In this document: piece after piece, positions 27,714 to 45,591 of the stretch | Numbering within the stretch: position 1 is the stretch's first letter | How the letters are laid out: each line of letters starts with the position of its first letter | NCBI GenBank assembly: GCA_025056745.1 | Contig: JANWVQ010000098.1 | Location: forward strand, 1-45,797 | Reading direction: 5' to 3' | DNA: 45,797 nucleotides | Source: Ignavibacterium sp. | GTDB lineage: Bacteria; Bacteroidota; Ignavibacteria; Ignavibacteriales; Ignavibacteriaceae | Notes under the pieces: generated by a model | The model's database searches: none | What the model was told of the DNA's origin: nothing | What the model saw: only the letters and a program-made list of their open reading frames with translations | Translations under genes and position numbers: made by a program

Positions 27714-28666
27714 AATTAGCTTTATATTGGAATAAGATAAAAGTTTTCTTAAATCCTGAAAGTGCATCTTACTGGCACACAATCACTCGTTGCACGATCG
27801 ATAAAACCCCAGAGAGGCTTGGAAGATATTATTTAAATTTTGAGTCTAAATTATTTTATCCTGAGAAAATGGATGATAATGGGATCCCGTTATGGAAAAT
27901 AAATAATGAGCCTTATTTTCATCATCCTATAGTAATTGCGCAATATGCCTTAGGAATTTATGAACACTATTTACAAAGTGGGTTTAGTGATGAAGAGCTA
28001 AAGAGAAAATTTTTAGTGCAAGTTGATTGGTTTAAGAAAAACTTTAAAGAAACAAATTGTGGAAAAGTTTGGTACATTTACTACGACATACCTTATTATA
28101 AACTTTATAAACCCTGGTATTCTGCTTTGTCACAAGGAGAAGCTGTATCGGTATTAACGAGAGCCTTTTTAATTAATAAGGATGAAAGTTTAATAGAATT
28201 ATGCGAAGCAGCTATTAATCCTTTTTTTGTTGAAGTAAGTAATGGTGGATTATTAAACTACTTTGATGGCATTCCAGTTTTTGAAGAATATCCTTCACCC
28301 ATAAAGACTGTAGCTGTTCTAAATGGTTTTATATTTTCTCTTTTTGGCTTGTATGATCTATTTCTTCTCAGTAAAAGTAAAAAAGCAGAAGAATTATTCG
28401 CTCGAGGTGTAAAATCCATAAAAAAATTACTACCTTATTATGATACTGGTTATTGGGTAAGATATTTTCTCTATGACTATCCTAAAGAATATGTAGCATC
28501 CTTTACTTATATTTCATTAATGTATGAACAATTAAGGGTTCTTTATCATCTGACTGATGACAAAATATTTAGTGATTATTCTGAAAAATGGAGACAATAT
28601 TCTGAAAACAAATTTTTCAAGATGAGAGCATTAGTAAAGAAGATCATTTATGCAAATAGTTTTTGA
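27710..28666 (+). CDS. D-glucuronyl C5-epimerase domain protein
   Basis: 318 residues matching the C-terminal domain of animal heparan sulfate glucuronyl C5-epimerase (GLCE). Shared signatures in order: SALSQGEAVSVLTRAFL (138-154), FEEYPSPIKTVAVLNGFIFS (191-210), LFGLYDL (211-217), YYDTGYW (243-249) and YISLMYEQLRVLYHL (267-281). The last two correspond to the region of catalytic Tyr in the human enzyme. It would convert D-glucuronic to L-iduronic acid units or a related uronate. No signal peptide is visible, so it is probably cytoplasmic, acting on lipid-linked or nucleotide intermediates. Overlaps both neighbours. Confidence 0.85.
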   Translation: MKLALYWNKIKVFLNPESASYWHTITRCTIDKTPERLGRYYLNFESKLFYPEKMDDNGIPLWKINNEPYFHHPIVIAQYALGIYEHYLQSGFSDEELKRKFLVQVDWFKKNFKETNCGKVWYIYYDIPYYKLYKPWYSALSQGEAVSVLTRAFLINKDESLIELCEAAINPFFVEVSNGGLLNYFDGIPVFEEYPSPIKTVAVLNGFIFSLFGLYDLFLLSKSKKAEELFARGVKSIKKLLPYYDTGYWVRYFLYDYPKEYVASFTYISLMYEQLRVLYHLTDDKIFSDYSEKWRQYSENKFFKMRALVKKIIYANSF

Positions 28667-29786
28667 TTATTTAATGTATAAAAGTATTACTAAAAAAATA
28701 TCTGGAAATTTCATTATTGAAAATTTACTTCAATTTTTCTTTGATGTAGTCTTAAAGTTAATTCGATTTTTATCTAAATTATTTTCCAAAAAGGGAGGAA
28801 GTGTTTGCATAATAAGCATTCACAAGTTAGGCGATTCAATTTTTACTTTTGATACTATAAATTCAATCAAAACTTATTATAAAAATAGAGATGTATTCAT
28901 AATTTGTAATTATAATTCAAAGGATATTTACAATTTAATCCATCCAAAGGAATTTGTGTTAAATTTACCAAAAAGTTGTTTCCATTTTAATGATAGATAT
29001 TTAGATTCAAAAGCAAGAAAAATCTTAAGGTCTTTAAATCCTGAAATAATCATAGACATCACTGGAGTTATGACATCTGCAAGTTTGATTTTTAACTCAA
29101 CTGCAAAAGAAATATTTGGAATTAATAGAAAATTATTTAGATCAATTTATGATAAATTCATTGAGACAAATACAAACCTTGTATCAAAACAAATTTATTT
29201 AAATGCTATCAAAGAAATAATTCCGATAAATCCAATTATAACTAACAAAGTAAGAAACAATAACTCAAATTCAATAAAAACAATACTAATAGCTCCATTC
29301 GCAGGATGGAAATCAAGAGAATGGGGACTTGGAAAATACATAACATTGAGTGAGAGATTATCGAACGATTATGAGGTTGAATTATTATTTGATCAAACAT
29401 TTATAACAAGAGAAATTATTGATTATCTCTCAATAAATGGTATCAAGTATTATATATCAAAATCCGTAAATGAATTAATTAACAAAATAAAGGAATACGA
29501 CCTTGTAATTGGTAATGATTCTGGTCCGATTCACATAGCAGAATTTTTAGGTAAATACACTTTCACAATTTACGGTCCAACAAATCCTTATTATCATAAG
29601 GAAGAGGGAGAAAATCACGAATTCATTCAAAAAGTATTACCGTGTTCTCCTACTTCAAGCGAAAGACTTTGTTTTACTGATGGAGGTAAAGATGGATGTC
29701 CATCTTTTGAATGTATGAGTTTATTATCAGTTGATGAAGTTTATGAAAAATTATTAAAATCAATTTCGAAATGGAATTCAGATTGA
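28650..29786 (+). CDS. Glycosyltransferase family 9 (heptosyltransferase-like)
   Basis: 378 residues with a GT-B fold. VCIISIHKLGDSIFTFD is the N-terminal beta-strand and loop of GT9, and VIGNDSGPIHIAEFLGKYTF with YGPTNP is the donor-binding region shared with WaaF/WaaC. An N-terminal extension of about 50 residues includes a hydrophobic stretch and is unusual. The start overlaps the epimerase by 17 bases; ATG 28674 would avoid the overlap but has no ribosome site. The sugar added is unknown; in this locus it assembles or anchors the polymer. Confidence 0.85.
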   Translation: MQIVFDYLMYKSITKKISGNFIIENLLQFFFDVVLKLIRFLSKLFSKKGGSVCIISIHKLGDSIFTFDTINSIKTYYKNRDVFIICNYNSKDIYNLIHPKEFVLNLPKSCFHFNDRYLDSKARKILRSLNPEIIIDITGVMTSASLIFNSTAKEIFGINRKLFRSIYDKFIETNTNLVSKQIYLNAIKEIIPINPIITNKVRNNNSNSIKTILIAPFAGWKSREWGLGKYITLSERLSNDYEVELLFDQTFITREIIDYLSINGIKYYISKSVNELINKIKEYDLVIGNDSGPIHIAEFLGKYTFTIYGPTNPYYHKEEGENHEFIQKVLPCSPTSSERLCFTDGGKDGCPSFECMSLLSVDEVYEKLLKSISKWNSD

Positions 29787-31207
29787 TTAAAGAAAATATA
29801 AAATCATTGATATCTTATTTTAATGTTAATAAAAAGGAAATAGTTGCTTATTCTTTTTTAGCAGCCATAATGTTTGCAGTTTTTGCAGATATATATTACT
29901 TGCCTTTTGCTCTATTAGTAGCAATAATATTATATAATTACTTAAATGAAAAGACATTCATTTTTTTTAGCATAATAATTTTAATTTCATTTACAGGAGA
30001 AGCTGTAGAAAATTTAAGAGATTATTTTACAATACTTGCGATAATAGGACTCACACTTTTTTTTATTAAAAAATACGGACTTAACTTTAATGATTATCCT
30101 AAGCCACCAAAATTAATTTTGAGGCTTTGGTTTCTTTTTATTTTTACGTTAGCTTTCAGCACTATTATAAATGGCTTTCACTTTGCAGGAATTGATGTCC
30201 TATTCAAAGCAATTGTATTCTTTTCAATTTGTTATTTCTTGTATGCATTTTTAGAGGAGAAAGACAATAAATTTAATCACTACTATTTGATATTAAGCCT
30301 TTTCTCAGCTAGTTTGATTCTTAGTATTACAGTTTATTATGAATTGATTTCAGCTGGGTTCACTGTTTTTCTTGTTGAAGGATTTTTTGCAAGATTTGCA
30401 GGTGTTTATGGAAATTTCAATACTTTAGCTTTGGTAATATCTCTTAACGTAATTCTATCTATAATAGCAATCTACACTGAAAACGTTCCCGGATGGGTTA
30501 AAAAATATTTCATACCATTCTATTTAATAAATAATTTTTTCATAATCTTTCTTACAAACTCAAGAGCAGCTATACTTGCATTATCCGTTGCGCTACTATT
30601 TCTTTTTTATCATTTGAATAAAAAAATAATCTTATTATTTGTTGGATTAGTAGCTTCTGTATTACTTCTTTATTTAATTGATCCATTTACTCAGTCTTTG
30701 ATTGATGCTTATATTAGACTTGACACAGTATCACAAAGAGATTATCTGTGGGCTGCTGGAATAGAGGTTATGAAAGACTATCCAATCTTTGGTGTTGGTA
30801 CTGAAATGTTTCATCATAAGTTTTACACGTATGTTCCTACTGCTGGTGCTTATATGTTTGATTTGTTTAGAATACTTCAAAAACCTCATCCACATAATTA
30901 TTCACTATGGCTTATCACAGAAAATGGAATATTAGGTTGGATATGTGCTTTTGCAATTTTTGGATTTTACTTTTATATGGGATTTAAATTGATAAAAAAA
31001 TTATCTATTCAAAAAGATGAACCCTATTATTTTTCTTTAGGATTAACTGCAGTTGGTATCTTGGTTTTTGTGAGATCTTTCTTTGAAGTTGAAGGAATTT
31101 TTTCTTATGGCTATATCTCAAGGGATTTACCATTTTGGATAAATTACATTTTGTTAGGTTATTATTATAAAAAATATTTTGAAAATCAGGAGGCTCAAAG
31201 CTCTTGA
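29771..31207 (+). CDS. O-antigen polymerase/ligase family membrane protein (Wzy/WaaL-like)
   Basis: 478 residues with about 10-12 membrane helices and the large loop characteristic of Wzy_C proteins, including NNFFIIFLTNSRAAILALS and the PHPHNYSLWLITENGILG segment, which match O-antigen ligase/polymerase homologues. It would polymerise repeat units or ligate the finished polymer. Family alone cannot separate the two roles. The start overlaps GT9 by 16 bases and the stop overlaps the next gene. Confidence 0.85.
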   Translation: MEFRLIKENIKSLISYFNVNKKEIVAYSFLAAIMFAVFADIYYLPFALLVAIILYNYLNEKTFIFFSIIILISFTGEAVENLRDYFTILAIIGLTLFFIKKYGLNFNDYPKPPKLILRLWFLFIFTLAFSTIINGFHFAGIDVLFKAIVFFSICYFLYAFLEEKDNKFNHYYLILSLFSASLILSITVYYELISAGFTVFLVEGFFARFAGVYGNFNTLALVISLNVILSIIAIYTENVPGWVKKYFIPFYLINNFFIIFLTNSRAAILALSVALLFLFYHLNKKIILLFVGLVASVLLLYLIDPFTQSLIDAYIRLDTVSQRDYLWAAGIEVMKDYPIFGVGTEMFHHKFYTYVPTAGAYMFDLFRILQKPHPHNYSLWLITENGILGWICAFAIFGFYFYMGFKLIKKLSIQKDEPYYFSLGLTAVGILVFVRSFFEVEGIFSYGYISRDLPFWINYILLGYYYKKYFENQEAQSS

Positions 31208-32325
31208 AAAGAAATATTAAAGTTCTGATTCTGTCTGATCCTTCTTCAAGTCATACTTCAAAATGGGTAAATTCTTTATTTGATGCTGGAATAGATTTAA
31301 TTCTTATAGGACTGGCTGATTATGACTTTAATGAGTATAACAGAAATATAAAAATAGAAGTCATAGATTTCTCCAAATCTGCTAAAGGTAAACCTGATGG
31401 TGATCCAAGAAAATTAGTTTATTTGAGATCTATTTCATTCGTAAAAAAAATTATAAAATCTTTCAAGCCTGATATTTTGCACGCCCACTATGCATCAAGT
31501 TATGGTTTGATTGGTGCTTTATGCGGATTTCAACCTCTTTTAGTTTCAGTTTGGGGTAATGATGTATATGATTTCCCTAAAAAATCTTTTATTCATAAAA
31601 AGTCCTTTGAATATGTTTTAAAGAAGAGTTACAGAATATTCTCAACAAGTAAGATAATGGCTGATGAAATTAGCAAATACACAAATAAAAACATTAAAAT
31701 AATCCCTTTTGGAATTGATGTTAGTATATTTAAACCTTTTGAAACAGAAAAATTATTTCCTGGTGATACTATAATTTTAGGTGCAGTTAAATCTTTATCA
31801 TATAAATATGGAAACGACAAAGTAATCAAAGCATACAAAATCGTTAAAGAGAAATTACCTGAATATAATTTAAAGCTACTTTTAGTTGGTGATGGAATAT
31901 TAAAACAAAAGATGGAAGAATTGGTGGTAAGTCTTGGATTAACTGATGATGTAAAATTTATTGGCAAAGTGCCTCATAGTCAGGTTACTAAATACCACAA
32001 TATGATAGACATTCATATTTATCCATCAATTTGGGAAAGCTTTGGAGTTTCAAACTTAGAGGCTGCAGCGTGTGAAAAGGTTCAAGTTGCTTCTAATATC
32101 GGAGGATTTAAAGAAATACTTAATGATGGCATTGATTCGTTTTTAGTTGATCCAAATTCTCTAGAGGATATTGTAGATAAAATCATTTTGCTGATTAAAA
32201 ATAAAGAGCTCAGAATCAAAATGGGAAAAGAAGCAAGAAATAATGTTATAAAAAAATTCAATTGGCAAGATAACGTCAAAGATATGATTGAAGAATATTA
32301 TTCTGTATTAAAAGGTTATAAATAA
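31204..32325 (+). CDS. Glycosyltransferase family 4
   Basis: 373 residues, GT-B fold. DPSSSHTSKWVNSLFDAGID starts the N-terminal Rossmann domain, PDILHAHYASSYG follows, and PSIWESFGVSNLEAAACEKV contains the E-x7-E donor-binding motif of GT4. Starts at TTG 31204, overlapping the previous stop by four bases, after gaaaatcaggaggctc (strong AGGAGG). Ends sharing its last base with asnB (TAATG). Sugar unknown. Confidence 0.9.
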   Translation: MKRNIKVLILSDPSSSHTSKWVNSLFDAGIDLILIGLADYDFNEYNRNIKIEVIDFSKSAKGKPDGDPRKLVYLRSISFVKKIIKSFKPDILHAHYASSYGLIGALCGFQPLLVSVWGNDVYDFPKKSFIHKKSFEYVLKKSYRIFSTSKIMADEISKYTNKNIKIIPFGIDVSIFKPFETEKLFPGDTIILGAVKSLSYKYGNDKVIKAYKIVKEKLPEYNLKLLLVGDGILKQKMEELVVSLGLTDDVKFIGKVPHSQVTKYHNMIDIHIYPSIWESFGVSNLEAAACEKVQVASNIGGFKEILNDGIDSFLVDPNSLEDIVDKIILLIKNKELRIKMGKEARNNVIKKFNWQDNVKDMIEEYYSVLKGYK

Positions 32326-34172
32326 TGTGTGGAATTTTTGGCGCAGTATCTTTCGATATTCCCTTCAATAAAAAAGATTTTGAAAAATTCTGTGTGCTTA
32401 CTGATATGATTTCTTATCGAGGACCTGATGCATCAGGGTATAAGGGATTTGATTCAAAATCTAAAATTATATCAGATGAGAGATTTAATGTTTTTTTTGG
32501 TCATCGAAGACTTTCAATAATTGATTTGTCTTCAGAAGGAAATCAACCACTTCACTCCGATGGATGTTGGATTATATACAATGGAGAAATTTTTAATTAC
32601 ATTGAATTAAGAGATGAATTAAAATTAAAAGGCTGTGTATTTAGTACCAATACTGATACAGAAGTAATAACAAAGGTTTACAAAAACTATGGTGTTGATG
32701 GTTTTGATAAGCTCAATGGTATGTGGGCTTTTGCAATTTATGATCAGGAAAAAAATATAGTTGTTTTATCACGTGATAGATTTTCTATAAAGCCTTTGTT
32801 TTATTATCAGTTAAATAATTACTTCTATTTCTCAAGCGAAATAAAACAATTATTACCTCTTCTTGATAAAAAAGAAATTCACTTTGAGACGATGCAAAAT
32901 TTTCTTCAACAAGGACTTTTAGAAATTGATGAGAATTCTTTTTTCAATGGTATTAAGAGAATTAAACCTAAAAGTTATTTGATAATAAATTTGAACAATA
33001 ATAAAATCCAGAGCGGTATTTACTGGAATTACTCTGAACCATCTTTTGATATTTCATACCAACAAGCAAAAGAAAAATTTTTAGAGCTATTTTTTGATAG
33101 CGTTAAAATCAGATTAAGAAGCGATGTTTCCTTAGGTTCTTTGCTTAGCGGAGGTATTGACTCTTCGGCAATAACTGCAGTTGCTACGAAATTATCTCCA
33201 AATAAAATTTCTACTTTTTCAATTATATCAAATGAAAAAAAAGTCAGCGAGGAAAAATTCATAGACATCTTCAATGAAAATTTTCAAACGAATAATAAGA
33301 AACTTTTAGTTGAATCAAATTTTTTGAATGAACAATTTGATAAAGTATTATTTCATCAAGATGAACCGTTTAATTACCTAATAGTATTTGCACATTATCA
33401 ACTAATTAAAACATTAAATGAAAATTCAGATATAGTTGTAATATTAAATGGTCAAGGTGGAGATGAAGTAATGCTCGGATACTTAAGATTTTATTTTTTC
33501 TACCTAAAGTATTTATACAAAAGTAGAAATTTATCAAGACTATTTAATGAAATATTTCATTCTTTAATAAATAGAACTGCTTTATATCAAATTAAAATTA
33601 ATGCAGCTAAAAGATATTTACCTAAAGTCTTGTTATCAGACAAAACTTTTCTAACCAAGAAAAAAGATTTAGTAGAGGTTTGGAAGTTTAATAATTTGAG
33701 GGAAGTTCAAATTAATGAAATAGATAAATTCTCAATACCTTATATTAATAGATATGAAGATAGAAATTCTATGGCATTCTCAAAAGAGATTCGATTACCT
33801 TTTTTGGATCATAGATTAGTTGACTTTTTAATTAATATTCCAGATTCATATAAAATAAACAAAGGATGGAGTAAGTACATATTGAGGGATTGTATTTCTT
33901 TATTACCAAAAAAAATCAGATGGCGAAGAGATAAAAAAGGTTTTTCATTACCTGAAGAAAAATGGGTTAAAGAAGACTTGAAAAATGAAATTATTAAGAC
34001 ATTTTCGAACAATGAAAGTATTTTATCTCAACTAGGTTTTATTAGCGATAGAAAATTTATGGATTACTTTTCAAGATTTTTAAGCGGTGATCAAAGAACT
34101 CACTCAACGGATATAAGTCGTGTTTATATACTTGAAAGATGGGCAAGAAAATATTTTGGTTATAACTTATGA
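32325..34172 (+). CDS. Asparagine synthetase-type amidotransferase, probably sugar-modifying
   Basis: 615 residues. Starts MCGIFGAVSF with Cys2 as N-terminal nucleophile of the glutaminase domain, including RLSIIDLSSEGNQPLH and YNGEIFNYIELRD; then the synthetase domain with PP-loop SLLSGGIDSSAITAVA and C-terminal RLPFLDHRLVDFLINIP. This is the AsnB fold (class II Gln amidotransferase). AsnB itself is possible, but homologues inside O-antigen loci (such as WbpS) amidate uronic acids, and here it lies between glycosyltransferases in a locus with a uronate epimerase. I infer that role, with moderate confidence. Confidence 0.9.
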   Translation: MCGIFGAVSFDIPFNKKDFEKFCVLTDMISYRGPDASGYKGFDSKSKIISDERFNVFFGHRRLSIIDLSSEGNQPLHSDGCWIIYNGEIFNYIELRDELKLKGCVFSTNTDTEVITKVYKNYGVDGFDKLNGMWAFAIYDQEKNIVVLSRDRFSIKPLFYYQLNNYFYFSSEIKQLLPLLDKKEIHFETMQNFLQQGLLEIDENSFFNGIKRIKPKSYLIINLNNNKIQSGIYWNYSEPSFDISYQQAKEKFLELFFDSVKIRLRSDVSLGSLLSGGIDSSAITAVATKLSPNKISTFSIISNEKKVSEEKFIDIFNENFQTNNKKLLVESNFLNEQFDKVLFHQDEPFNYLIVFAHYQLIKTLNENSDIVVILNGQGGDEVMLGYLRFYFFYLKYLYKSRNLSRLFNEIFHSLINRTALYQIKINAAKRYLPKVLLSDKTFLTKKKDLVEVWKFNNLREVQINEIDKFSIPYINRYEDRNSMAFSKEIRLPFLDHRLVDFLINIPDSYKINKGWSKYILRDCISLLPKKIRWRRDKKGFSLPEEKWVKEDLKNEIIKTFSNNESILSQLGFISDRKFMDYFSRFLSGDQRTHSTDISRVYILERWARKYFGYNL

Positions 34173-35107
34173 TTACTGTAGTATGTCCTGTATTTAATGA
34201 AAGAGAACACATTGAGGATGTTCTTAATTTCTTTATCTCGGCAAAACCAGATGATAAAGAATTAATTATAATTGATGGAGGCTCAAATGATGGGACAATT
34301 GAATTATTAGAAAAATGGATAAAGAAATACTCAAACATTAAACTATTTCATAATCCAAATAAATACGTTCCATTCGCATTAAACTTGGCTATTAAGAATA
34401 GTATTGGCGATCCAATAATTAGATTGGATGCACATACCAAATATTCAATTGATTACTTCGAAAAAATACTTGAAACCTTTAAGCGAACAGATGCAGATAT
34501 TGTTGGTGGCCCAATGATTAAAAAAGGCATTACAGATTTTCAGAAAGCTGCAGCGATTGCGACATCTTCATTATTTGGAATTGGGGATAGCAAAATTCAC
34601 AATAAAAATTATGAGGGCTACAGTGACCACGTTTATTTAGGTGCTTGGAAGCGTTCATTGTTTGATGAAATTGGTTACTTCGATGAAAGATTAATTCGTA
34701 ATCAAGATGATGAATTTCATTATAGAGCTAGAAGTTTAGGGAAAAAAATTTATTTATCTCCAGACATTAAGTCTGAATATTTACCAAGAAAATCCTTTTC
34801 ACAACTATTTAAGCAATACTTTCAATATGGTTTATATAAACCATTAGTTTTAAGAAAAATTAAATCCGAGATTAAATTAAGACATCTAGTCCCTATGATT
34901 TTTACATTGTATCTTATATCACTTCCTGTTTTGATTTTTATAAGTTGGTTTTTAATTTTTCCATTGATTTTATATGTGCTCATAGGCTTGATTATTTCGT
35001 TTAATGCAGATAAAAATATTAAAATTAAGTTATTAACTTTTATCATTTTCCCTGTTATTCATTTAGCGTATGGTTCAGGATTTTTAATTGGTCTATTCAA
35101 AAAATGA
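34169..35107 (+). CDS. Glycosyltransferase family 2 with C-terminal membrane anchor
   Basis: 312 residues. GT-A fold: ITVVCPVFNEREHIEDVL (strand 1), ELIIIDGGSNDGTIELLEKW, a DxD-type IRLDAHTKYS and a later NQDDEFHYRARSLGKK. Two or three hydrophobic helices after about residue 230 anchor it, as in ExoA-like enzymes. It overlaps asnB by four bases. An 80-bp AT-rich gap follows, the largest in the locus. Confidence 0.9.
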   Translation: MITVVCPVFNEREHIEDVLNFFISAKPDDKELIIIDGGSNDGTIELLEKWIKKYSNIKLFHNPNKYVPFALNLAIKNSIGDPIIRLDAHTKYSIDYFEKILETFKRTDADIVGGPMIKKGITDFQKAAAIATSSLFGIGDSKIHNKNYEGYSDHVYLGAWKRSLFDEIGYFDERLIRNQDDEFHYRARSLGKKIYLSPDIKSEYLPRKSFSQLFKQYFQYGLYKPLVLRKIKSEIKLRHLVPMIFTLYLISLPVLIFISWFLIFPLILYVLIGLIISFNADKNIKIKLLTFIIFPVIHLAYGSGFLIGLFKK

Positions 35108-35186
35108 TTAAAAAAATATTTTTAAAAAATTATTTAATTAGTTAGATTAAAAAGCAATTTTAGAATTTTTAGTAAAAAAATTATTT

Positions 35187-36356
35187 ATGAACAAAGAGAA
35201 TAAAGACTATCTTTTATTCCATAAGCCATACATAACAGAAGAAGAAATAAATGAAATGGTCGATACCCTTCGTTCTGGATGGTTAAGTATGGGTCCTAAA
35301 ACAATAAAATTCGAAAATGAATTTAATAAATACATAGGTTCTAAAAGGTCTGTTGCAGTTAGTTCTTGGACAGCAGCTGGTCACTTAACTTTAGAAGCAT
35401 TTGGAATTCAACAAGGTGATGAAGTTATAGTTCCAACTATGACTTTTCCTGCCACTGCTGAGATAGTATGTTATTTCGGTGCTAAACCTGTGATTGTTGA
35501 TGTTGATGAGGACACTCTCAATATATCTTTGGAAAATATCGAAAAAGCTATTACAAAAAAGACTAAAGCAATAATTCCCGTTCACTATGGTGGACAACCC
35601 TGCGATTTAGATGAAATCAATGAAATTGCAAAAAAATACAATCTTAGAGTTCTAGAAGATGCTGCTCACTCTTTACCTGCAACTTATAAAGGACGTAAAA
35701 TAGGTACAATCTCAGAAGTTACTTGTTTTTCTTTTTATGCGACTAAAACTCTCTCTACAGGTGAAGGTGGAATGATATGTACGGACAATGAAGAATTAGC
35801 TGAAAGATGCGCTATAATGAGATTGCACGGAATAAATAGGGACGCTTGGAAAAGATATTCTGAATCTGGTTCTTGGTACTATGAAGTAGTTGCTCCTGGA
35901 TATAAATATAATTTCACTGATCTTCAAGCTTCTTTGGGTTTACCTCAGTTGAAAAAAGTCGATTTTATGTGGGAATCTAGAAAATATATTGCCAATAGAT
36001 ATAATGAAGCATTTAAGGATTTTGATTTAATAACCCTTCATACCATAAAACCAGACAGAGAATCATCGTGGCATTTGTATCCTATCAGATTAAATCTTGA
36101 TATGTTAAAAGTTACAAGAGCTCAGATAATCGATGAATTAAAGCAAAACAATATTGGTGTTGGTGTTCATTTTATGCCAGTAAATAAACATTTGTTCTAT
36201 CAAGAAACATTCAAGTTAGAGGATAAAGATTTTCCAGTAGCAAATTCCGTATTTCCAAGATTGTTGTCTTTACCAATTTATCCCGGAATGACTGATAAAA
36301 ATATTGATAAAGTCATAAACGTCTTCACTGATATTCTCAAAAAATATAGAAGGTAA
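35187..36356 (+). CDS. DegT/DnrJ/EryC1/StrS-family sugar aminotransferase
   Basis: 389 residues of the PLP-dependent aminotransferase family acting on nucleotide-linked keto sugars. PLP Lys187 is in SFYATKTLSTGEGGM, and Asp158 in VLEDAAHSLPATYKGRKIG pairs with the pyridine nitrogen; VPTMTFPATAEIV is also typical. It makes an amino sugar for the polymer. WbpE-type or ArnB-type substrate cannot be told apart by eye. The conserved N-terminal FHKPYITEEEINE supports ATG 35187. Confidence 0.93.
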   Translation: MNKENKDYLLFHKPYITEEEINEMVDTLRSGWLSMGPKTIKFENEFNKYIGSKRSVAVSSWTAAGHLTLEAFGIQQGDEVIVPTMTFPATAEIVCYFGAKPVIVDVDEDTLNISLENIEKAITKKTKAIIPVHYGGQPCDLDEINEIAKKYNLRVLEDAAHSLPATYKGRKIGTISEVTCFSFYATKTLSTGEGGMICTDNEELAERCAIMRLHGINRDAWKRYSESGSWYYEVVAPGYKYNFTDLQASLGLPQLKKVDFMWESRKYIANRYNEAFKDFDLITLHTIKPDRESSWHLYPIRLNLDMLKVTRAQIIDELKQNNIGVGVHFMPVNKHLFYQETFKLEDKDFPVANSVFPRLLSLPIYPGMTDKNIDKVINVFTDILKKYRR

Positions 36357-36367
36357 CCATTCCCTTA

Positions 36368-36943
36368 ATGGGCAAGCAAGGCAGTTTCATTAAGAGATTT
36401 ACGGATATAATAATTAGTCTTTTTGTCTTAACTATTTCCTTCCCTCTTTTCATAATTGCGATGATTGCGATAAAATTAGATTCTAAGGGTCCGGTATTTT
36501 TTATTCACGAAAGGACTGGCTTAGGAGGAAAACCTTTTAAGATGATCAAATTCAGGGGAATGATCGATAATGCATTAGCACACGGTCCTGTTTTGACACA
36601 AGAAAATGATCCACGAATAACCCGAGTTGGAAAAATATTAAGAAGAACAAGTTTTGATGAAGTACCTCAATTTATAAATGTGCTAATTGGTAATATGAGT
36701 GTAATAGGTCCTCGTCCTGAGATGATAAGCATAACTGAAACTTACGATGAATATCAGAGAAAAGTCTTCGAATTTAAGCCTGGTATTACTGGTATTTCAC
36801 AAGTTAATGGTAGGCAGCGATTAACTCCTGAAGAAAGGACCAAAATGGAGATTGAATATTATCAAAAAGAAAACTTCTGGGATGATCTTAAAATTATCTT
36901 AAAGACCTTCAAGGTTATATTTACTAACGAGGGAAATATTTGA
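36368..36943 (+). CDS. Undecaprenyl-phosphate sugar-1-phosphate transferase
   Basis: 191 residues of the bacterial sugar transferase family (short, PglC-like form, about 200). The membrane segment is about 12-35; then FFIHERTGLGGKPFKMIKFR and TSFDEVPQFINVLIGNMSVI, then GPRPEMI and KPGITGISQVNGRQ. These are the catalytic core with the DE motif and P-R-P. It starts the repeat unit on the lipid carrier. Two bases separate it from the next gene. Confidence 0.93.
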   Translation: MGKQGSFIKRFTDIIISLFVLTISFPLFIIAMIAIKLDSKGPVFFIHERTGLGGKPFKMIKFRGMIDNALAHGPVLTQENDPRITRVGKILRRTSFDEVPQFINVLIGNMSVIGPRPEMISITETYDEYQRKVFEFKPGITGISQVNGRQRLTPEERTKMEIEYYQKENFWDDLKIILKTFKVIFTNEGNI

Positions 36944-36944
36944 T

Positions 36945-37943
36945 TTGAAATCAATTTTATTAACTTCAACTCTCATTTTATTATTAGTACTTGTTTCACT
37001 ACCTCGTTTTAATTGGAGACCTTTGCCAGAGCCACTCAATAGTTTTGTCGGTGGGAAACCTTTTGATGTCGAACAATATGAAAAATATGTTAGCTATTTT
37101 CGAGGAAATCAAATAGTCAGAGAAGAGTTAGAGTCACCATTTTCTCATAGACCACTTATACCATTTCTTGCCTCACTATTGCCATTTGATGAATTAACTT
37201 CATTGAATTTGATTAATATTCTAATTATATCAATTGGTATGATTTATCTACTTAAGTTTTTATGGTCTTTGAAGTTTTCTAATAAAATGGTATTTATTGG
37301 AGGATTATTATTTGTTGTATCATTTCCTGCATTTTATTATACAACGAGTGGTTATATCGATGCATCTTTAGTGGGTATGATATTAATATTTAACTATTTC
37401 CTATATACAAATAAGTATTATTTATTTTTGATATTTTTTTTAATAGCATCATTAATAAAAGAAACTGTCATTGTAACTTTTCTTGCTAGTGTAATTTATA
37501 TAAACTACAAAGAAAAAGGCGTTAACAAATATTATAAAAATTTATTGACTCTAATCTTGTTCTTTCTAATACAAAGCCTCATTAAATATTTTGCTCCAAG
37601 TAAAAATATTTTCTTTTGGAAACCAAATTTTGAAACTATAATCTATAATTTGGAAAGAATAAAGACTTACGTAAGTTTCATATTAACTTTGGGAATCCCA
37701 GGATTTTTTACAATTCTTAATTTGATAAATTTTAAGAAATTTTTTATCCCTTATGAAATTTTTTTATCATTAATAGTTGGAGCACTTTCAGGTTTCATTT
37801 TATGGTTTTATTCAATTTTTTCTGCTCACGCTGATGGGAGGCATTTATGGGTTATTTACCCTTATACTGTTCCAATAGCTACAAATTTTATAAATTATTT
37901 ATTCGAAGAAAAATTTTCACAAACTTATAAACTCTCAAAGTAA
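36945..37943 (+). CDS. Polytopic membrane protein, possibly a GT-C-fold glycosyltransferase
   Basis: 332 residues, about 8-9 membrane helices. A loop after the first helix holds SFVGGKPFDVEQYEKYVSYF and SHRPLIPFLASLLP; this arrangement (first helix, acidic-aromatic loop, short RPLxPFL) resembles GT-C polyprenyl-sugar transferases, but I see no decisive motif. The start is TTG 36945, 10 nt after a gaggga site. It is the last gene of the locus before a 90-bp gap. Function is by context only. Confidence 0.65.
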   Translation: MKSILLTSTLILLLVLVSLPRFNWRPLPEPLNSFVGGKPFDVEQYEKYVSYFRGNQIVREELESPFSHRPLIPFLASLLPFDELTSLNLINILIISIGMIYLLKFLWSLKFSNKMVFIGGLLFVVSFPAFYYTTSGYIDASLVGMILIFNYFLYTNKYYLFLIFFLIASLIKETVIVTFLASVIYINYKEKGVNKYYKNLLTLILFFLIQSLIKYFAPSKNIFFWKPNFETIIYNLERIKTYVSFILTLGIPGFFTILNLINFKKFFIPYEIFLSLIVGALSGFILWFYSIFSAHADGRHLWVIYPYTVPIATNFINYLFEEKFSQTYKLSK

Positions 37944-37952
37944 TTAGGCACT

Positions 37953-37976
37953 AAAAGTCAGTATTTTTGACCTTTT
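37953..37976 (+). terminator. Possible terminator hairpin at the end of the polysaccharide locus
   Basis: aaaagtca (37953-37960) can pair with tgacctttt (37968-37976) with one bulged C and a 7-nt loop. It lies 10 bp past the last gene of the locus. It is AT-rich and lacks a strong T-run, so weak. Confidence 0.3.
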
Positions 37977-38032
37977 AACAACTTTTATCGAATTTTACTT
38001 TGCTAAAAATAAAATAAATTATTAGGGAAAAA

Positions 38033-41000
38033 ATGATCAAGAAGCTAGTTCTATTATCATTTATTATTCTATCTTCAATTATATTATCTCAGAATAAAAG
38101 TTATTTGAAAATAATAGAATCGAATCTAAATTATTCAATTATAGAATGTGACTTTTCAACTCAATTTTCGATTGTTGATACTTCATTTAATGGAATCAGA
38201 TACACAATAATTAATGATAATGAATTATCTTACAATGAACCCGGAAAGCCATTTCTGCCTAATAGGATGTTTCAATATGGCATTCCATTCAATTCAAAAG
38301 TTAAAATTAATCTTATTGAACTTCAAAGTGAGACTTACTACAATAAATTTATCTTACCAACTCCAGATTCCTTAAATCAACCTATTGATAAACTTAATTA
38401 CGATTTTGAGATTTATAGTCAGAATTTGTATTTCCCAAACCAAATCATTGAATCCAAAGAACCGGCAATTTTCAGATTCTCAAAATTCACTTCAATATTG
38501 GTATCGCCTTTTCAGTTTAATCCAGTGGAACGAAAATTAATTTTTCATAGAAAAATCAAGTTTAGAATAGATTTTATAGATGATTTATCATTTGTTGGAA
38601 ATATAAAACCCTTTACTGAAGATAAGTTGACAAATGAATTTATTAATTCTCAATTGGTCAATTCTCAAGTTGCAATAAATTTCGCTGGAAAAGTAGTTGA
38701 TGAAACTTTTTCACAAACAAATTCAAACTATTGGTATAGTCCAAATAAGGATTGGTATAAGATTTATCTTAATAAAAGAGGAGTTTATAGAATAACATTT
38801 GATCAGTTAGTTCAATTAGGAATAAATCCTAATGGGCAGATCAGGAACGGGAAATTAGAACTTTATAACAACGGTGAAAAAATTCCAATTGATATTGTTG
38901 ATAAAAATCAGGATGGAGTTTTTAATTCTGGAGATTATTTTCAATTCGTTGGAGATAAAGTAAAACCAACACCTTTTTCTGGATTAAATATATACAATCT
39001 TACAAACGTTTATTGGTTTTCATATCAAGCTGATTCAGTTTATAAATATTTGCCAAAGAATGGTCAGCCTGAGAATACATTTTTCCCGGTTATCTCATCT
39101 GTTTCAACAATTCATTGGGAAGAAGATAAGATTTATGATAATTACGGATATGCTCCAAACGATCAGAGAGATTATTGGAGTTGGGGAACATCTGATTTAC
39201 GAAATACAGTCCCTGTATCATTCTTTAATTTTTGGATTAAAGATAGCATAGCTTATTATAGAGATCCTACACGTCCTCAATCCAGAATAAGAGTTAGTTT
39301 GCACGGTTTGACAGCATCATCTTGTCCAACTGCTCATAATGCTTGGATAAAATGGAATTTTAAGAAAATAGGAGAATCATTATCCTGGGGTGGCCAAAAT
39401 TCTGCTTTGATTGATCAACAATTTTTATGGGGTATCGGTGGTGATAGTGTTTATTGCTCGCCCGATAGTAATTACATTATTGTTGGTGTTGATTCAACAA
39501 ACTGCAATTTTAATACAGATATCATAAGAATAAATTGGGTTGAGCTCGACTACTGGCGTTTGCACAAAGTAAGAGGTCCTTACTTCGAGTTTAAAAATCC
39601 TCCTAACAGATTTGGAATATTAAATTATTATTTATATGAATATCCGTTCCTTCAAATGAAAATATACATTCCTCAAACTGGAAGAATGATAACAAATCCA
39701 GATATTAGAAATGATGCTGACCAGAGTGTTTGGTTTACGGATACAGTCAGTGCACCAACTGAGTATTTTTGTGTTTATCCAGAGTATTTTTTAGTTCCTG
39801 ATTCAATTAGAAGAGATGTTGTTAGTGATTTAAGAAATGTAAATAATGGAGTTGATTATTTAATCATTACCCACAGAAAGTTTCAAACACAAGCACAACA
39901 GTTAGCAAATTTCAGATCACAAAATCTACACGGATTTAACAACCCACGAGTAATGCTGGTTGATGTTCAAGATGTTTATGATGAGTTCAATTTTGGTTTG
40001 CGTGATCCAAAAGCGATAAGAGATTTTATTAAATACGCATTTGATAATTATTCAGGTAATACTCTCAGTTATGTTACTTTAATTGGAGATATGAGTAGAG
40101 ACTATAGGGGAATTTTACCAAACAGTAAAATAAGTTATATGCCTTCTATGCCATATCACGCTATTCTCTATGGTCAATTAGCAAGTGATAATTTATTTGC
40201 CTGCATTGTTGGTAATGATTTTATTCCTGATCTTGCTTTAGGTAGAATTTCCTGTGAAGATGAACAAGAAGCTAATATTCTTATCTCAAAGATTTTGAAT
40301 TATCCTGCTGATAACTCAAAAGAATGGAAAAAAACTGTTGGGCTTTATTCAGGTGGACTTAATGAAAACGATGAAAACTCATTTAAGTTTAACGATAGTA
40401 ATATATTCTTAGAAGAGAATTATCTTAATCCGTTTGGTGCAATAACATCTAAAGTTTTCCGATATCCTAACAAACCTGAGTATTTACCTTTTGCTGGTAG
40501 TGGACCTGAGATTAGACAATCGATAAACAAAGGAACAGTATTAGTAAGTTATTATGGCCACGGTGGAGGATATCAATGGGACTTTGTTTTTACTGATGAT
40601 GATATATATGCATTAAACAATCAAAATAGATTACCATTTGTCATCAGTGTAACTTGTTATACCTCACATTTTGATAATCAAAAAGTGTTTGGAGAAATAT
40701 TTAATTCTGTGCCTAATAAAGGAAGTATAGCAACTTTTGGAAGTTCGGGGGTTACACTTTGGCCTACAGCGAAATTTTTTAATCAAGAATTATTCAGAGA
40801 AATATTCAATAATAGAAGATATACCATTGGAGACGCAATTCTTGTTGCAAAAGCAAATCCAGCTTATGGAACAATGACACAAGTTTTAACTTTATTAGGT
40901 GATCCTGCTCAGAGATTAGCTTTGCCAGAATATCCTGACTTTGTTGTAAGGAGCTCTGATATTTCAATATCTCCAAGAAATCCTTTGGTAAATGACACTG

Positions 41001-43750
41001 TTAAAGTTAAAATTTTCATTAGAAATATGGGAACAGCTTTCAGAGGAGATTCTGTTACTGTTCAACTTTACAAATATTCAATTTCTGATACTAATTTGAT
41101 TGGTAGTACTAAATTAAAAAGCTTTAATTTTATAGATTCGACAGAGTTTAATTGGATCACTACTGAAGATGGGCTTATTCCTTTAATAGCAGTTGTTAAT
41201 AAAGTTGATACACTTATGGAAATAGATCAAACCGATAATGTTGCCTCAGCAAGTTTTCCAGTATTTAATATTAGTAAGCCAAACATAATTAAACCTAGTG
41301 ATAATTTCTTTACCAGTTCAAGAAATGTAGATTTTAGATTTGTTGACGTTGGAACTTATGTTCAACAAAATTTTAGATATCAGGTTGTTATTGATACTAC
41401 AAAATTATTCAATTCATCGAGAAGAATTATCTCTCCAATATTAAGGCCTGAGGAGGGAATAATAAGTTGGCGCTCCCCTCAACTGTCAGATGGAATTTAT
41501 TATTGGAGAGCTTTTATTTACTCAGGCTCAGATACTAACTACAGTGATATAAAAACATTCAGTATTATTAATGAATCTGGGTTTGGTTTCTATGCTCATC
41601 AAAAACAATTACTTGATTTTACAACGACTAACATTTTATATTCTGATTCTCTTAAAAGTTTAATATTAAATACATCAGTTAATCCTCCTTATCCAATTGA
41701 AGAGAATCTTTTAGACTCAATAATGGTTCCTATACCAGTGGATTCTACATATTTTACCGCTTCTGCAACTGATGGGACTTATATTTATTTTGGAAACATA
41801 GTAGATCATAACTTCGGAAGGAAAAGTAAAATTTATAAAGTGGGAACTGGATTTAATGGAACTGTAAAAGGTCAAGTTTATGGCACTCTTGGAAATTTAG
41901 AAGTAACAATAAAAAATCAAATGTTTTATCATTCAGATGGATTTTTATATGTAGCAACAGGTGATAGTCTTTCCTTATTGAGGATTAATCCTTTAACTGC
42001 TGATACTACAAGAATTTATTTAGGAGATGAATTATTGCCTAATTTGGATGGATTACTAAGTAATTCAGGGTATTATGTGACTTCTGATGGTAGATACGTT
42101 TATAATTTAACTGGCGGTTATTCTGGTAAGAGAGAAAAATATGTATTAAGAAAATTTGATCCTCAAAATAATTGGTCGAAAGTTGGAGAAGATGTTGAGT
42201 TCTTAGGAAAGTCTCAGAGAGGTTTTTCAAACTTTTTTGTAAGTGATGGATATGTTATAACGATTGAAAGTTTTGAAAATCACTATATGAGAAAATATAG
42301 GCTGGATGGTTTCTATGAAGGTGAATGGGTTCCGCTAAATAGACCTAATATTCTTTATTCAATAGCATTTGATAGACAGAACAATAGATTGTACATAAGT
42401 ACCTATAAACCACCTCAATTTTTATATCAATCTGGATTTTTCGTCTATAAAGGAAGTTACGTGAATGCTTCTGGTCAATTTGAAACTCCGGAGATAGGAC
42501 CTGCATTAAAATTTAATCAATTGAATTATCTCGTTGATAATACCAATTCATTAGGTAAGTACACTAATATCCTTTTAGCTCGAAGTTCAAATTCCCAACA
42601 GTGGGATACAGTTGCAACTAATATTCCACAATCATTTAATTTATCAAACCTTCCGGGAGGATATGAATTTATAAAAATGAACTTTTCATTCATTGATACA
42701 TCCACTCAAGCTTCTGAGCCATTAAAATTTAAGTTCATTAAAGTTGATTATTCTTTATTCCCTGAAATTCATTTTGCTCCAGATTATTTAAAATTTCAAT
42801 CAGATACTTTAATGCAAGGATTTGATAATAGTTTAACACTCAGAGCGAAAAATATTGGCCTTTCAGATGTTGATTCAGTTCGATTTGATTTTTATTTCAA
42901 TAACTCAGATAGACCAGCATTTACGACGTTTCAAAAAATTAAAACTGATAGCACATTACTATTCTCAAGAATTATTCCCACAGATACTTTACTTTATACT
43001 GCTCCACTTACGGATATAAATATAAAAGTTACGATCACTTCACCTGTTAAGGAATTTTATACTTTCAATAACATAACTGAAAATAATTTTTATGTTTCAA
43101 GAGATTCAATCTCTCCAATTTTCAAGATAACTTTTGATGGTAGAGAAATATTAAATGGAGATTTAATTTCAGCAGAACCAGAGGTAATTATTACCCTTGA
43201 AGATAATAGTCCTTTACCTTTAGATACATCAAGGTTTTCAATTATTCACAACAATGTTCCAATAAGATTTTCAAATCCAGCGATAAGCTTTAATTACAAT
43301 CCATTTCCAAACTCAAAAGCGATAGTCAAGTGGAAACCAAAATTGAAGGATGGAAGACACATTCTTGAAGTATTAGCCAAAGATGCATCTAACAATTATT
43401 TCGATACAGTTTCTTACAGAGTGTTCTTTTTTGTAAGTAATAAATCTGATATGAAAAATGTTTATAATTATCCAAATCCCTTTAAAGATAACACTTATTT
43501 TACATTTGAAATTAGAGGCATATCTCCTCCAGAGAAACTAAAAATTAGTATATTTACAATAGCTGGTAGATTGATTAGGGAAATCACCGTTCCAACCTCA
43601 ATGTTGAATATGGGCTTTAATAAAGTTTTTTGGGATGGTAGAGATGAGGACGGTGATGAAATTGCTAATGGAATCTACTTTTATAAAATTACTTCTAAAT
43701 TTAAAGATAAGACCATTACTACAACCGAAAAATTATCTAAAATAAAGTAA
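38033..43750 (+). CDS. porU: PorU-like type IX secretion sortase, C25 (gingipain) family, very long
   Basis: 1905 residues. Signal peptide about 1-20. Propeptide-like N-terminal half (NEPGKPFLPNRMFQYGIP). C25 catalytic domain starts at about 608 (VDYLIITHRKFQTQAQQL), with His843 in SYYGHGGGYQW and Cys875 in VISVTCYTSHFDN, the gingipain dyad. After it come CARDB-like and beta-rich segments, including a propeller-like middle (about 1210-1480) and a second CARDB-like unit. The C-terminus (about 1808-1905: NYPNPFKDNTYFTFEI, WDGRDEDGDEIANGIYFYKI) is a FlgD-like T9SS sorting domain. P. gingivalis PorU is about 1158 residues, so roughly 700 are extra. PorU removes the signal of T9SS cargo and attaches it to A-LPS; another C25 protease is the alternative. 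Ribosome site aggga. Confidence 0.8.
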   Translation: MIKKLVLLSFIILSSIILSQNKSYLKIIESNLNYSIIECDFSTQFSIVDTSFNGIRYTIINDNELSYNEPGKPFLPNRMFQYGIPFNSKVKINLIELQSETYYNKFILPTPDSLNQPIDKLNYDFEIYSQNLYFPNQIIESKEPAIFRFSKFTSILVSPFQFNPVERKLIFHRKIKFRIDFIDDLSFVGNIKPFTEDKLTNEFINSQLVNSQVAINFAGKVVDETFSQTNSNYWYSPNKDWYKIYLNKRGVYRITFDQLVQLGINPNGQIRNGKLELYNNGEKIPIDIVDKNQDGVFNSGDYFQFVGDKVKPTPFSGLNIYNLTNVYWFSYQADSVYKYLPKNGQPENTFFPVISSVSTIHWEEDKIYDNYGYAPNDQRDYWSWGTSDLRNTVPVSFFNFWIKDSIAYYRDPTRPQSRIRVSLHGLTASSCPTAHNAWIKWNFKKIGESLSWGGQNSALIDQQFLWGIGGDSVYCSPDSNYIIVGVDSTNCNFNTDIIRINWVELDYWRLHKVRGPYFEFKNPPNRFGILNYYLYEYPFLQMKIYIPQTGRMITNPDIRNDADQSVWFTDTVSAPTEYFCVYPEYFLVPDSIRRDVVSDLRNVNNGVDYLIITHRKFQTQAQQLANFRSQNLHGFNNPRVMLVDVQDVYDEFNFGLRDPKAIRDFIKYAFDNYSGNTLSYVTLIGDMSRDYRGILPNSKISYMPSMPYHAILYGQLASDNLFACIVGNDFIPDLALGRISCEDEQEANILISKILNYPADNSKEWKKTVGLYSGGLNENDENSFKFNDSNIFLEENYLNPFGAITSKVFRYPNKPEYLPFAGSGPEIRQSINKGTVLVSYYGHGGGYQWDFVFTDDDIYALNNQNRLPFVISVTCYTSHFDNQKVFGEIFNSVPNKGSIATFGSSGVTLWPTAKFFNQELFREIFNNRRYTIGDAILVAKANPAYGTMTQVLTLLGDPAQRLALPEYPDFVVRSSDISISPRNPLVNDTVKVKIFIRNMGTAFRGDSVTVQLYKYSISDTNLIGSTKLKSFNFIDSTEFNWITTEDGLIPLIAVVNKVDTLMEIDQTDNVASASFPVFNISKPNIIKPSDNFFTSSRNVDFRFVDVGTYVQQNFRYQVVIDTTKLFNSSRRIISPILRPEEGIISWRSPQLSDGIYYWRAFIYSGSDTNYSDIKTFSIINESGFGFYAHQKQLLDFTTTNILYSDSLKSLILNTSVNPPYPIEENLLDSIMVPIPVDSTYFTASATDGTYIYFGNIVDHNFGRKSKIYKVGTGFNGTVKGQVYGTLGNLEVTIKNQMFYHSDGFLYVATGDSLSLLRINPLTADTTRIYLGDELLPNLDGLLSNSGYYVTSDGRYVYNLTGGYSGKREKYVLRKFDPQNNWSKVGEDVEFLGKSQRGFSNFFVSDGYVITIESFENHYMRKYRLDGFYEGEWVPLNRPNILYSIAFDRQNNRLYISTYKPPQFLYQSGFFVYKGSYVNASGQFETPEIGPALKFNQLNYLVDNTNSLGKYTNILLARSSNSQQWDTVATNIPQSFNLSNLPGGYEFIKMNFSFIDTSTQASEPLKFKFIKVDYSLFPEIHFAPDYLKFQSDTLMQGFDNSLTLRAKNIGLSDVDSVRFDFYFNNSDRPAFTTFQKIKTDSTLLFSRIIPTDTLLYTAPLTDINIKVTITSPVKEFYTFNNITENNFYVSRDSISPIFKITFDGREILNGDLISAEPEVIITLEDNSPLPLDTSRFSIIHNNVPIRFSNPAISFNYNPFPNSKAIVKWKPKLKDGRHILEVLAKDASNNYFDTVSYRVFFFVSNKSDMKNVYNYPNPFKDNTYFTFEIRGISPPEKLKISIFTIAGRLIREITVPTSMLNMGFNKVFWDGRDEDGDEIANGIYFYKITSKFKDKTITTTEKLSKIK

Positions 43751-43758
43751 AGGGAATT

Positions 43759-45591
43759 ATGTGTGGAATAATTGGTTATATTGGAAATAAAAACTGCGTC
43801 CCTCTATTAATAGAGGGGCTAAAACGTCTTGAATATCGAGGATATGACTCCGCAGGTATTGGAGTTATAAAAGATGGCCAATCTATTATTGTTAAAAATA
43901 AAGGCAAAGTTTCAGAGCTTCAAGCAAAAGTTGAACAACTTGATTTAGAAGCTAATATTGGTTTAGGACATACAAGATGGGCCACACACGGGATACCAAA
44001 TGAAATTAATGCTCACCCACACCAAAATTCTGATGGCACTATTTTTTTAATTCATAATGGAATAATAGAAAACTATAAACCTTTGAAAAAAATATTATCA
44101 CAAGAAGGATATAAGTTCTCAAGTGAAACAGATACAGAGGTTATAGCTCATTTAATAGACTCATTTCTGAAAAAAGGATTTGATTTTTTCAAAGCAACTC
44201 GTCTCGCATTATTAGAAATTGAAGGAACCTATGGTCTTGCAGTATTATACACCAGAGAACCTGATAAAATAATTGTTGCAAGAAAAGGCTCTCCAATAAT
44301 TCTTGGAATAGGTAATAATGAAAATTTTGTAGCCTCTGATGTTTCTGCTGTATTAGCGCATACAAAAAATGTCATTTATTTAGAGGATGGGGAAATTGCA
44401 TTATTGAAAAAAGATGATTATTTAGTTAGAACTATAACTGATGATGAAGTTATCAAAGAAGTTCAAGAGATTTCAATGACTCTTGATGAGATAGACAAAG
44501 GTGGATATCCTCATTTTATGTTAAAAGAGATAATGGAGCAGCCTGAGTCTTTAAGAAATTCAATTCGAGGAAGGCTACTATTAGAAGAGGGGACAGCAAA
44601 ATTAGGTGGATTAGACAATATCATTGATGACTTATTAGATGTTGATCGTTTTATCATTACAGCTTGTGGAACAAGTTGGCACGCAGGCTTAGTTGCTGAA
44701 TATATGTTTGAACAATTTATTAGAATTCCAACAGAAGTTGAATATGCTTCAGAATTTAGATATAGAAATCCTGTGATTAACAAAAGAGATGCTGTTTTCT
44801 TTATTTCACAAAGTGGTGAAACAGCAGATACATTAGCTGCACTAAGAGAAACAAAACTTCGTGGCGGAATTGCAATTGGAATATGTAATGTAGTAGGTAG
44901 CTCGATTGCTAGAGAAAGTGATTCTGGTGTTTATATTCACGCCGGCCCTGAAATTGGAGTAGCATCAACAAAAGCTTTTACATCTCAACTAATAGTTTTA
45001 GCATTAATTACACTTTTAATAGCAAGAAGAAAAAATCTTAGTTTAGAAAATGGACGTGAGATTGCTAAAGCAATATCAAGGATTCCAGATCAAGTAGCTG
45101 AGATTCTCAAATTAAATGATAAAATTGAAGAAATAGCCGAAAAATTCAAAGATGCTAAAAACTTCTTATATCTTGGTAGAGGATATAATTTTCCGGTCGC
45201 TTTAGAAGGTGCGTTGAAGCTTAAAGAAATATCTTACATTCACGCAGAAGGATACCCGGCTGCCGAAATGAAACACGGTCCAATTGCATTAATTGATGAG
45301 AATATGCCAGTTGTTTTTATAGCACCTAAAGATGCAACATATGATAAAATCATTAGTAACATTCAAGAAGTCAAAGCTCGTGGTGGAAGAATAATTGCAA
45401 TAGCAAGTGAAGGTGATGAAGAAATTAAAGATCTAGTAGAATATGTAATATACATTCCACATACAATAGCAATGCTTAAACCAATTTTAACTGTAATCCC
45501 ATTACAACTATTAGCATATCACATAGCTGTTAAAAAAGGTCTTAATGTTGATCAACCAAGGAATTTAGCTAAAAGCGTTACAGTTGAATAA
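43759..45591 (+). CDS. glmS: Glucosamine-fructose-6-phosphate aminotransferase
   Basis: Makes glucosamine-6-phosphate, the entry to UDP-GlcNAc for peptidoglycan and surface polymers. 610 residues: Cys2 nucleophile (MCGIIGYIGNKNCVPLLIEG), glutaminase domain with HTRWATHG, then two SIS domains (ACGTSWHAGLVAEYMFEQF, FISQSGETADTLAALRE) and the C-terminal DQPRNLAKSVTVE. Starts 8 bp after porU with a gggaatt site. No glmS ribozyme: the 8-bp gap cannot hold one. Confidence 0.97.
   Translation: MCGIIGYIGNKNCVPLLIEGLKRLEYRGYDSAGIGVIKDGQSIIVKNKGKVSELQAKVEQLDLEANIGLGHTRWATHGIPNEINAHPHQNSDGTIFLIHNGIIENYKPLKKILSQEGYKFSSETDTEVIAHLIDSFLKKGFDFFKATRLALLEIEGTYGLAVLYTREPDKIIVARKGSPIILGIGNNENFVASDVSAVLAHTKNVIYLEDGEIALLKKDDYLVRTITDDEVIKEVQEISMTLDEIDKGGYPHFMLKEIMEQPESLRNSIRGRLLLEEGTAKLGGLDNIIDDLLDVDRFIITACGTSWHAGLVAEYMFEQFIRIPTEVEYASEFRYRNPVINKRDAVFFISQSGETADTLAALRETKLRGGIAIGICNVVGSSIARESDSGVYIHAGPEIGVASTKAFTSQLIVLALITLLIARRKNLSLENGREIAKAISRIPDQVAEILKLNDKIEEIAEKFKDAKNFLYLGRGYNFPVALEGALKLKEISYIHAEGYPAAEMKHGPIALIDENMPVVFIAPKDATYDKIISNIQEVKARGGRIIAIASEGDEEIKDLVEYVIYIPHTIAMLKPILTVIPLQLLAYHIAVKKGLNVDQPRNLAKSVTVE

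Follow-up and report, generated by a model that had tools for sequence, protein, structure and literature searches.

A T9SS-secreted, PorU-like C25 protein encoded at the end of a polysaccharide locus in Ignavibacteria: a candidate dedicated sortase

Described systems for joining secreted proteins to glycans

In Porphyromonas gingivalis, PorU conjugates T9SS cargo to A-LPS through a sugar of the Wbp/Vim pathway (PMC7468200). In Prevotella intermedia, an N-alanyl deoxyhexose serves as linking sugar and is formed without WbpB, WbpD, VimA and VimE, and according to the same study several different linking-sugar pathways may exist (PMC11969387); a linker independent of Wbp/Vim is hence possible in the T9SS. 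For polysaccharide A of Bacteroides fragilis, the initiation order is PglF/UngD2, WcfR and WcfS, resulting in lipid-linked AATGal, a 4-amino sugar, with ungD2 located outside the operon (PMC13063421). A further system is that of the exosortases, putative transpeptidases that accompany many C-terminally tagged PEP-CTERM proteins: 90% of the EpsH family members lie in exopolysaccharide loci (PMC1569441). The titles and abstracts of the open-access literature on the T9SS in Ignavibacteria comprise few items, none of them on a sortase-glycan pairing.

The window analyzed here, a stretch of 45,797 nucleotides, belongs to an Ignavibacterium-like genome of 2.74 Mb in 185 contigs, which encodes three C25 proteins. 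In a profile search of the whole genome, the T9SS type A sorting domain was matched 89 times, and the C25 protein of the window itself carries a Por_Secre_tail match (29 bits).

The locus and its C25 protein

All genes from the Wza/SLBB gene to glmS lie on the forward strand, with short gaps or overlaps, in the following order (domains of the C25 protein, here named SORT1905 after its 1905-residue family, are listed below its gene):

22713..24311, + strand, Wza/SLBB-type outer-membrane polysaccharide export protein (PF10531, PF02563)
24314..25450, + strand, Wzz/GNVR chain-length protein, no match for a kinase domain (PF02706, PF13807)
25471..26205, + strand, SAM methyltransferase (PF13489)
26202..27713, + strand, Wzx-type flippase of the MurJ family (PF03023, 184 bits)
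27710..28666, + strand, D-glucuronyl C5-epimerase domain protein, a variable gene of the locus (PF06662, 150 bits)
28650..29786, + strand, GT9 glycosyltransferase (PF01075)
29771..31207, + strand, Wzy polymerase/O-antigen ligase family (PF04932)
31204..32325, + strand, GT4 glycosyltransferase (PF00534, 134 bits)
32325..34172, + strand, AsnB-type glutamine amidotransferase of the exopolysaccharide clade, a variable gene (PF00733 and GATase_7)
34169..35107, + strand, GT2 glycosyltransferase (PF00535)
35187..36356, + strand, DegT sugar aminotransferase, ArnB/PseC-like (C4), a core gene (PF01041, 430 bits)
36368..36943, + strand, initiating phosphoglycosyltransferase (PGT), PglC/WcfS-like small form, a core gene (PF02397, 214 bits)
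36945..37943, + strand, multi-membrane-span protein found in few related loci (no Pfam match; NF046093 weak, 21.5 bits)
38033..43750, + strand, SORT1905, T9SS-secreted PorU-like C25 protein (PF01364, 263 bits)
39857..40918, + strand, C25 catalytic domain of SORT1905, residues 609-962
41675..42472, + strand, predicted beta-propeller of SORT1905, residues about 1215-1480, glutaminyl-cyclase/olfactomedin-like fold
43469..43720, + strand, T9SS C-terminal domain (CTD) of SORT1905, PorU-type and not cargo-type
43759..45591, + strand, glmS, conserved neighbor directly downstream of SORT1905 (PF01380/PF13522)

The C25 gene starts 90 bp past ORF 36945-37943, and glmS begins 8 bp past the C25 stop codon. 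Pfam matches for an initiating PGT, a Wzx flippase, a Wzy polymerase, Wza and Wzz identify a Wzx/Wzy-dependent polysaccharide locus. The original prediction had named an AsnB at 32325, a DegT at 35187, an epimerase at 27710, the C25 gene and glmS, and Pfam confirmed each of them; the polymer locus it described is present as well, but reaches further upstream than claimed, to the Wza/SLBB gene at 22713. Elsewhere in the window, a lipoprotein-like ORF (20746-21330) is followed by a short ORF (21509-21826), which may be its continuation or a relative: a frameshift or a tandem pair is possible.

SORT1905 belongs to peptidase family C25, with the catalytic His843 (codon 40559-40561) and Cys875 (codon 40655-40657) kept and invariant in the aligned orthologs, within the motifs GHGGGxQWD and SVTCYTxHF. 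It had been described as a PorU-like C25 sortase. The resemblance holds, but SORT1905 is not the PorU of this organism: it scores 315.8 bits with the PorU equivalog model NF033707, under the cut-off of 420, and the PorU of this genome is found on contig C172 with 970.9 bits, adjoining a PorV-family protein. PorZ is encoded on contig C171 (374 bits, cut-off 260). With the model for PorU2, a putative T9SS sortase (NF052324), SORT1905 reaches 230.6 bits, again under the cut-off (450). The C25-domain tree places SORT1905 and PorU in separate clades with a support of 100/100, and with phmmer the C25 core is equally close to gingipain proteases (49.5 bits) and to PorU (50.7 bits).

The predicted structure of the N-terminal half (pLDDT 85, pTM 0.86) has PorU (6za2) as its best Foldseek match, with an E value of 1.5e-27 over 837 columns, and VIA-align superposes 580 residues on the same structure with a Z of 21.6. 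Within this model, the C25 core matches gingipain R (Z 40), and residues 355-510 resemble CBM jelly-rolls (Z 8-9). The C-terminal half (pLDDT 86, pTM 0.61) is predicted to contain a five-bladed-type propeller with a Z of about 17 to glutaminyl cyclases and olfactomedin domains, along with CARDB and Ig domains, the last domain being the T9SS CTD; Ig-rich proteins dominate the Foldseek ranks of this half, which are not counted as evidence of kinship. A fusion of PorU and PorZ was considered and rejected, as the propeller region matches the cyclase and olfactomedin propellers, PorZ appears only as a low-ranking multi-domain match, and the true PorZ is encoded elsewhere.

The CTD was compared with two profiles, one built from PorU CTDs and one from the 30 best-scoring cargo CTDs, a small set from this single genome. 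The PorU profile is preferred by 49 of 49 SORT1905 and 12 of 12 PorU2 proteins and by none of the 30 cargo domains; the SORT1905 medians are 89 bits (PorU profile) and 39 bits (cargo profile). The CTD of PorZ is reportedly not cleaved, unlike those of cargo (PMC8545088). Taken with the PorU-type CTD, this suggests from sequence that SORT1905 is a component of the T9SS machine rather than a cargo protease. The cargo domains themselves, judged on the 30 best of this genome, are very uniform, and subclasses matching different sortases were not visible by eye.

Orthologs of SORT1905 were gathered from 34 of 59 relative genomes, and the 63 named loci all come from Ignavibacteria or close MAGs. Upstream genes were counted in the 37 named loci that have 5 kb or more of preceding sequence, glycan genes being sought within 7 kb, and downstream genes in the 52 loci with 2 kb or more on that side. 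Recognized glycan genes precede SORT1905 in 34 of the 37 loci (PGT in 30, DegT in 26); in seven, no PGT was seen nearby, and in three, no recognized glycan gene. The next gene is glmS in 45 of the 52. The order of locus, C25 protein and glmS, for which the original prediction had proposed a comparison of related genomes, is thus kept across the class Ignavibacteria. The glycosyltransferase content differs between species, and PGT and DegT form the common core, the least variable genes of the locus. SORT1905-glmS and the genes past glmS are conserved blocks; general gene-order conservation in the class contributes to the SORT1905-glmS link.

Canonical PorU served as the negative control. The same kind of search found upstream glycan genes in 0 of 19 PorU loci, using a reference gene set drawn from SORT1905 and PorU2 loci; two PorU loci were hence rechecked by Pfam, and their upstream genes encode ExbB, TonB, SPOR, HhH-GPD, HD, carbon-nitrogen hydrolase, peptidyl-arginine deiminase and metal ATPase proteins. 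DegT orthologs (at least 55% identity) occur only in genomes carrying SORT1905, in 21 of 34 against 0 of the 25 without it. The p-values for the glycan linkage of SORT1905 versus PorU (4e-12), for this co-inheritance (2e-7) and for the co-inheritance within the family alone (0.003) overstate independence, as the counts are of related species. The tie between locus and SORT1905, put forward originally as inference, is strongly supported.

Two features vary among these loci. A Wzi-like outer-membrane protein of about 557 residues (25 loci, for example L147 and L114), assigned on a Pfam match of 27 bits that lies just under the cut-off of 30.1, is encoded between PGT and SORT1905 in many related loci; it is present in 14 of the 37 loci and absent from the window. 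Loci L124 and L166 each have two consecutive SORT1905-like ORFs, through a split gene, an assembly error or a tandem duplication.

The third C25 protein of the genome (contig C144) is closer to PorU2, with 373.7 bits under a cut-off of 450; its gene is cut by the contig end. The term PorU2 was not met in the openly accessible literature searched. Besides this copy, the PorU2-type loci examined were L104 and L224-L243, from G030 and 20 other Ignavibacteria loci. In 19 of 21 Ignavibacteria loci, the paralog ends another glycan operon: TPR, DUF4292, M23 peptidase, Wzx, UDP-galactopyranose mutase, glycosyltransferases and a WecG/TagA-type transferase. His and Cys are kept in all three paralogs despite differing motifs, GHG(N/S)P..W and AATCDF in PorU, GHSGT..WD and DFGCST in PorU2. 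SORT1905 and PorU2 are paralogous C25 proteins that both end glycan operons, but they differ in these motifs and in the operon content, and the PorU2-type protein with its operon makes up a second sortase-glycan pair. Compared with PorU, SORT1905 has the same His/Cys pair, a PorU-like N-terminal region in the predicted structure and a PorU-type CTD; it differs by its clade, by its glycan locus in place of a neighboring PorV and by its length, with the added propeller and CARDB/Ig domains.

The sugar enzymes of the locus

The adjacent DegT-PGT pair is conserved across related loci. The window DegT scores 306 bits with ArnB, 222 with perosamine synthetase, 172 with PseC (2fn6) and 162 with WbpE. 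Being nearest to ArnB and then to perosamine synthases, it is indicated to aminate at C4; identification as the C3 enzyme WbpE, as originally predicted, or as PglE was rejected on the lower scores, and DegT probably acts in a pathway other than Wbp/Vim. The best solved relatives of the PGT are PglC and WbaP. A PglF/CapD-type dehydratase lies beside the PGT in 13 of 18 loci with a diverged PGT, versus 1 of 25 loci with a window-like PGT. There is no 4,6-dehydratase in the window locus and no full-length PglF-type enzyme in the genome, so the substrate of DegT must come from elsewhere; an RmlB is encoded on contig C37. Judged by gene types and order, the arrangement may correspond to polysaccharide A initiation in B. 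fragilis, with a conserved pair of 4-aminotransferase and small PGT and a dehydratase sometimes outside the operon; unlike here, no sortase is present in that system. From the C4-type DegT, the PglC-like PGT and the B. fragilis order, the first sugar is most plausibly a 4-amino-4,6-dideoxy sugar, whose amine may serve as the acceptor.

AsnB, the only full-length one in the genome, had been taken for a WbpS. In the tree it joins the AsnB of an exopolysaccharide locus from Azospirillum (98/94), while WbqG (29% identity) and E. coli AsnB (27%) branch elsewhere, so that it does not fall within the true asparagine synthetases either. The window protein scores 415.8 bits with TIGR01536 and 319.3 with TIGR03108, against 459.8 and 528.5 for WbqG of E. 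coli O121; WbqG itself is under the TIGR03108 cut-off, which alone decides nothing. Given the tree and the preference for TIGR01536, a uronamide-forming amidotransferase of the WbpS/WbqG type was rejected, and so was an E. coli-type housekeeping asparagine synthetase B, on the tree and on an NF006949 score of 212 bits (cut-off 499; 1050 for E. coli AsnB). Asparagine synthesis is still possible, since the protein passes the generic TIGR01536. AsnA was not found in the source genome. All 59 relatives (G000-G058) encode AsnRS, but only three have AsnA, and 12, nearly complete ones among them, lack any Asn_synthase match; members of this order seemingly do not depend on AsnB for their asparagine.

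Among SORT1905 loci, AsnB occurs only in the genus of the window and in two other loci (L119, L122), being absent from most, and the C5-epimerase is present in a minority. These two genes would account for variable tailoring of the polymer and not for the linking chemistry. A uronic acid of the polymer may plausibly be amidated, but this step is not shared by the system in general, and the amidated amino-uronic linking sugar foreseen for AsnB and DegT is not supported by the tree and the profile scores.

A possible sortase function and its alternatives

From the gene content, the conserved linkage, the co-inheritance, the intact catalytic pair, the PorU-like predicted fold and the PorU-type CTD, we infer a transpeptidation, with the neighboring glycan as putative acceptor and one of its amines as the probable site. 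There is about an even chance that SORT1905 acts as a surface transpeptidase ("sortase") of the T9SS, dedicated to joining cargo to the polysaccharide encoded upstream. The repeat unit would be built on undecaprenyl phosphate by the enzymes of the locus, DegT and the PglC/WcfS-like PGT starting it with a 4-amino-4,6-dideoxy sugar; Wzx would flip it, Wzy polymerize it and Wza export the glycan. SORT1905 would cross the outer membrane via the T9SS and retain its PorU-type CTD. Its Cys875/His843 pair would then cleave the C-terminal domain of cargo, and the acyl-enzyme would be handed to an amine of the glycan, be it the 4-amino group or an amino acid attached to this group.

The same linkage would be expected of a surface C25 peptidase or adhesin that serves the capsule machinery and attaches no cargo. 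Such a protein would mature capsule-associated outer-membrane proteins, for example the Wzi-like one found in 14 of the 37 loci, and bind polysaccharide via its propeller and CBM-like domain, both typical binding modules; the gingipain-like C25 core fits this too. A third C25 protein in addition to PorU, with PorZ and PorV encoded elsewhere, may have a non-sortase role. The PorU architecture over 580 N-terminal residues and the PorU-type CTD argue against it, and the PorU2-type protein, tied to another glycan operon, speaks more for a sortase-glycan principle common to both than for a task with a single capsule protein; the capsule role is rather unlikely. It is also unlikely that the neighborhood is one of history, a variable polysaccharide locus caught between SORT1905 and glmS with no functional tie. 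Conserved blocks on that side are what the borders of a locus would look like, but DegT orthologs follow the presence and absence of SORT1905, the adjacent PGT and DegT vary least among the genes of the locus, and the PorU2-type paralog shows an independent glycan link that was seen at none of the canonical PorU loci.

Very improbable is a linking sugar of Wbp/Vim type, an amidated amino-uronic acid formed by AsnB as WbpS and DegT as WbpE and used by PorU. AsnB, DegT and a glucuronate C5-epimerase do occur together in the locus, the genome encodes UDP-glucose and WbpA-type nucleotide-sugar dehydrogenases, and two other DegT proteins are nearer to WbpE (240 and 256 bits), yet QdtB or related aminotransferases match these two better. 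The locus has no wbpABED cluster, the WbpA-type gene lies by itself on a small contig (C23), AsnB lies off the WbqG branch and is missing from most SORT1905 loci, DegT is ArnB-like, and the C25 protein is not PorU. Common to the proposed SORT1905 sortase and the Wbp/Vim pathway is the notion that T9SS cargo has a glycan acceptor of its own; enzyme branch, neighborhood and sugar genes differ. In its logic, the closest analogy for the SORT1905-glycan pairing would be the association of exosortases with exopolysaccharide loci, although exosortases reside in the inner membrane as integral proteins and have no kinship with C25, and SORT1905 is secreted by the T9SS.

PorU would run with PorV and PorZ, PorU2 with the UDP-galactopyranose-mutase operon and SORT1905 with the putative 4-amino-sugar locus. 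That these are three parallel T9SS C25 enzymes, each perhaps with its own glycan, and the SORT1905 acceptor possibly the amine of a 4-amino-4,6-dideoxy sugar, is a tentative extension and somewhat doubtful. Should every one of them couple cargo to a separate glycan, a single T9SS would supply several anchors at the cell surface, and the SORT1905 branch could do without the Wbp/Vim pathway. How the C-terminus of T9SS cargo is anchored to glycan is known chemically from a few oral Bacteroidota. The conserved link between C25 paralogs and glycan operons helps to match glycans to enzymes from genome data, singles out the DegT aminotransferase and the phosphoglycosyltransferase as candidate sugar genes, and has a parallel in the exosortases and their exopolysaccharide loci, where the enzymes belong to an unrelated family.
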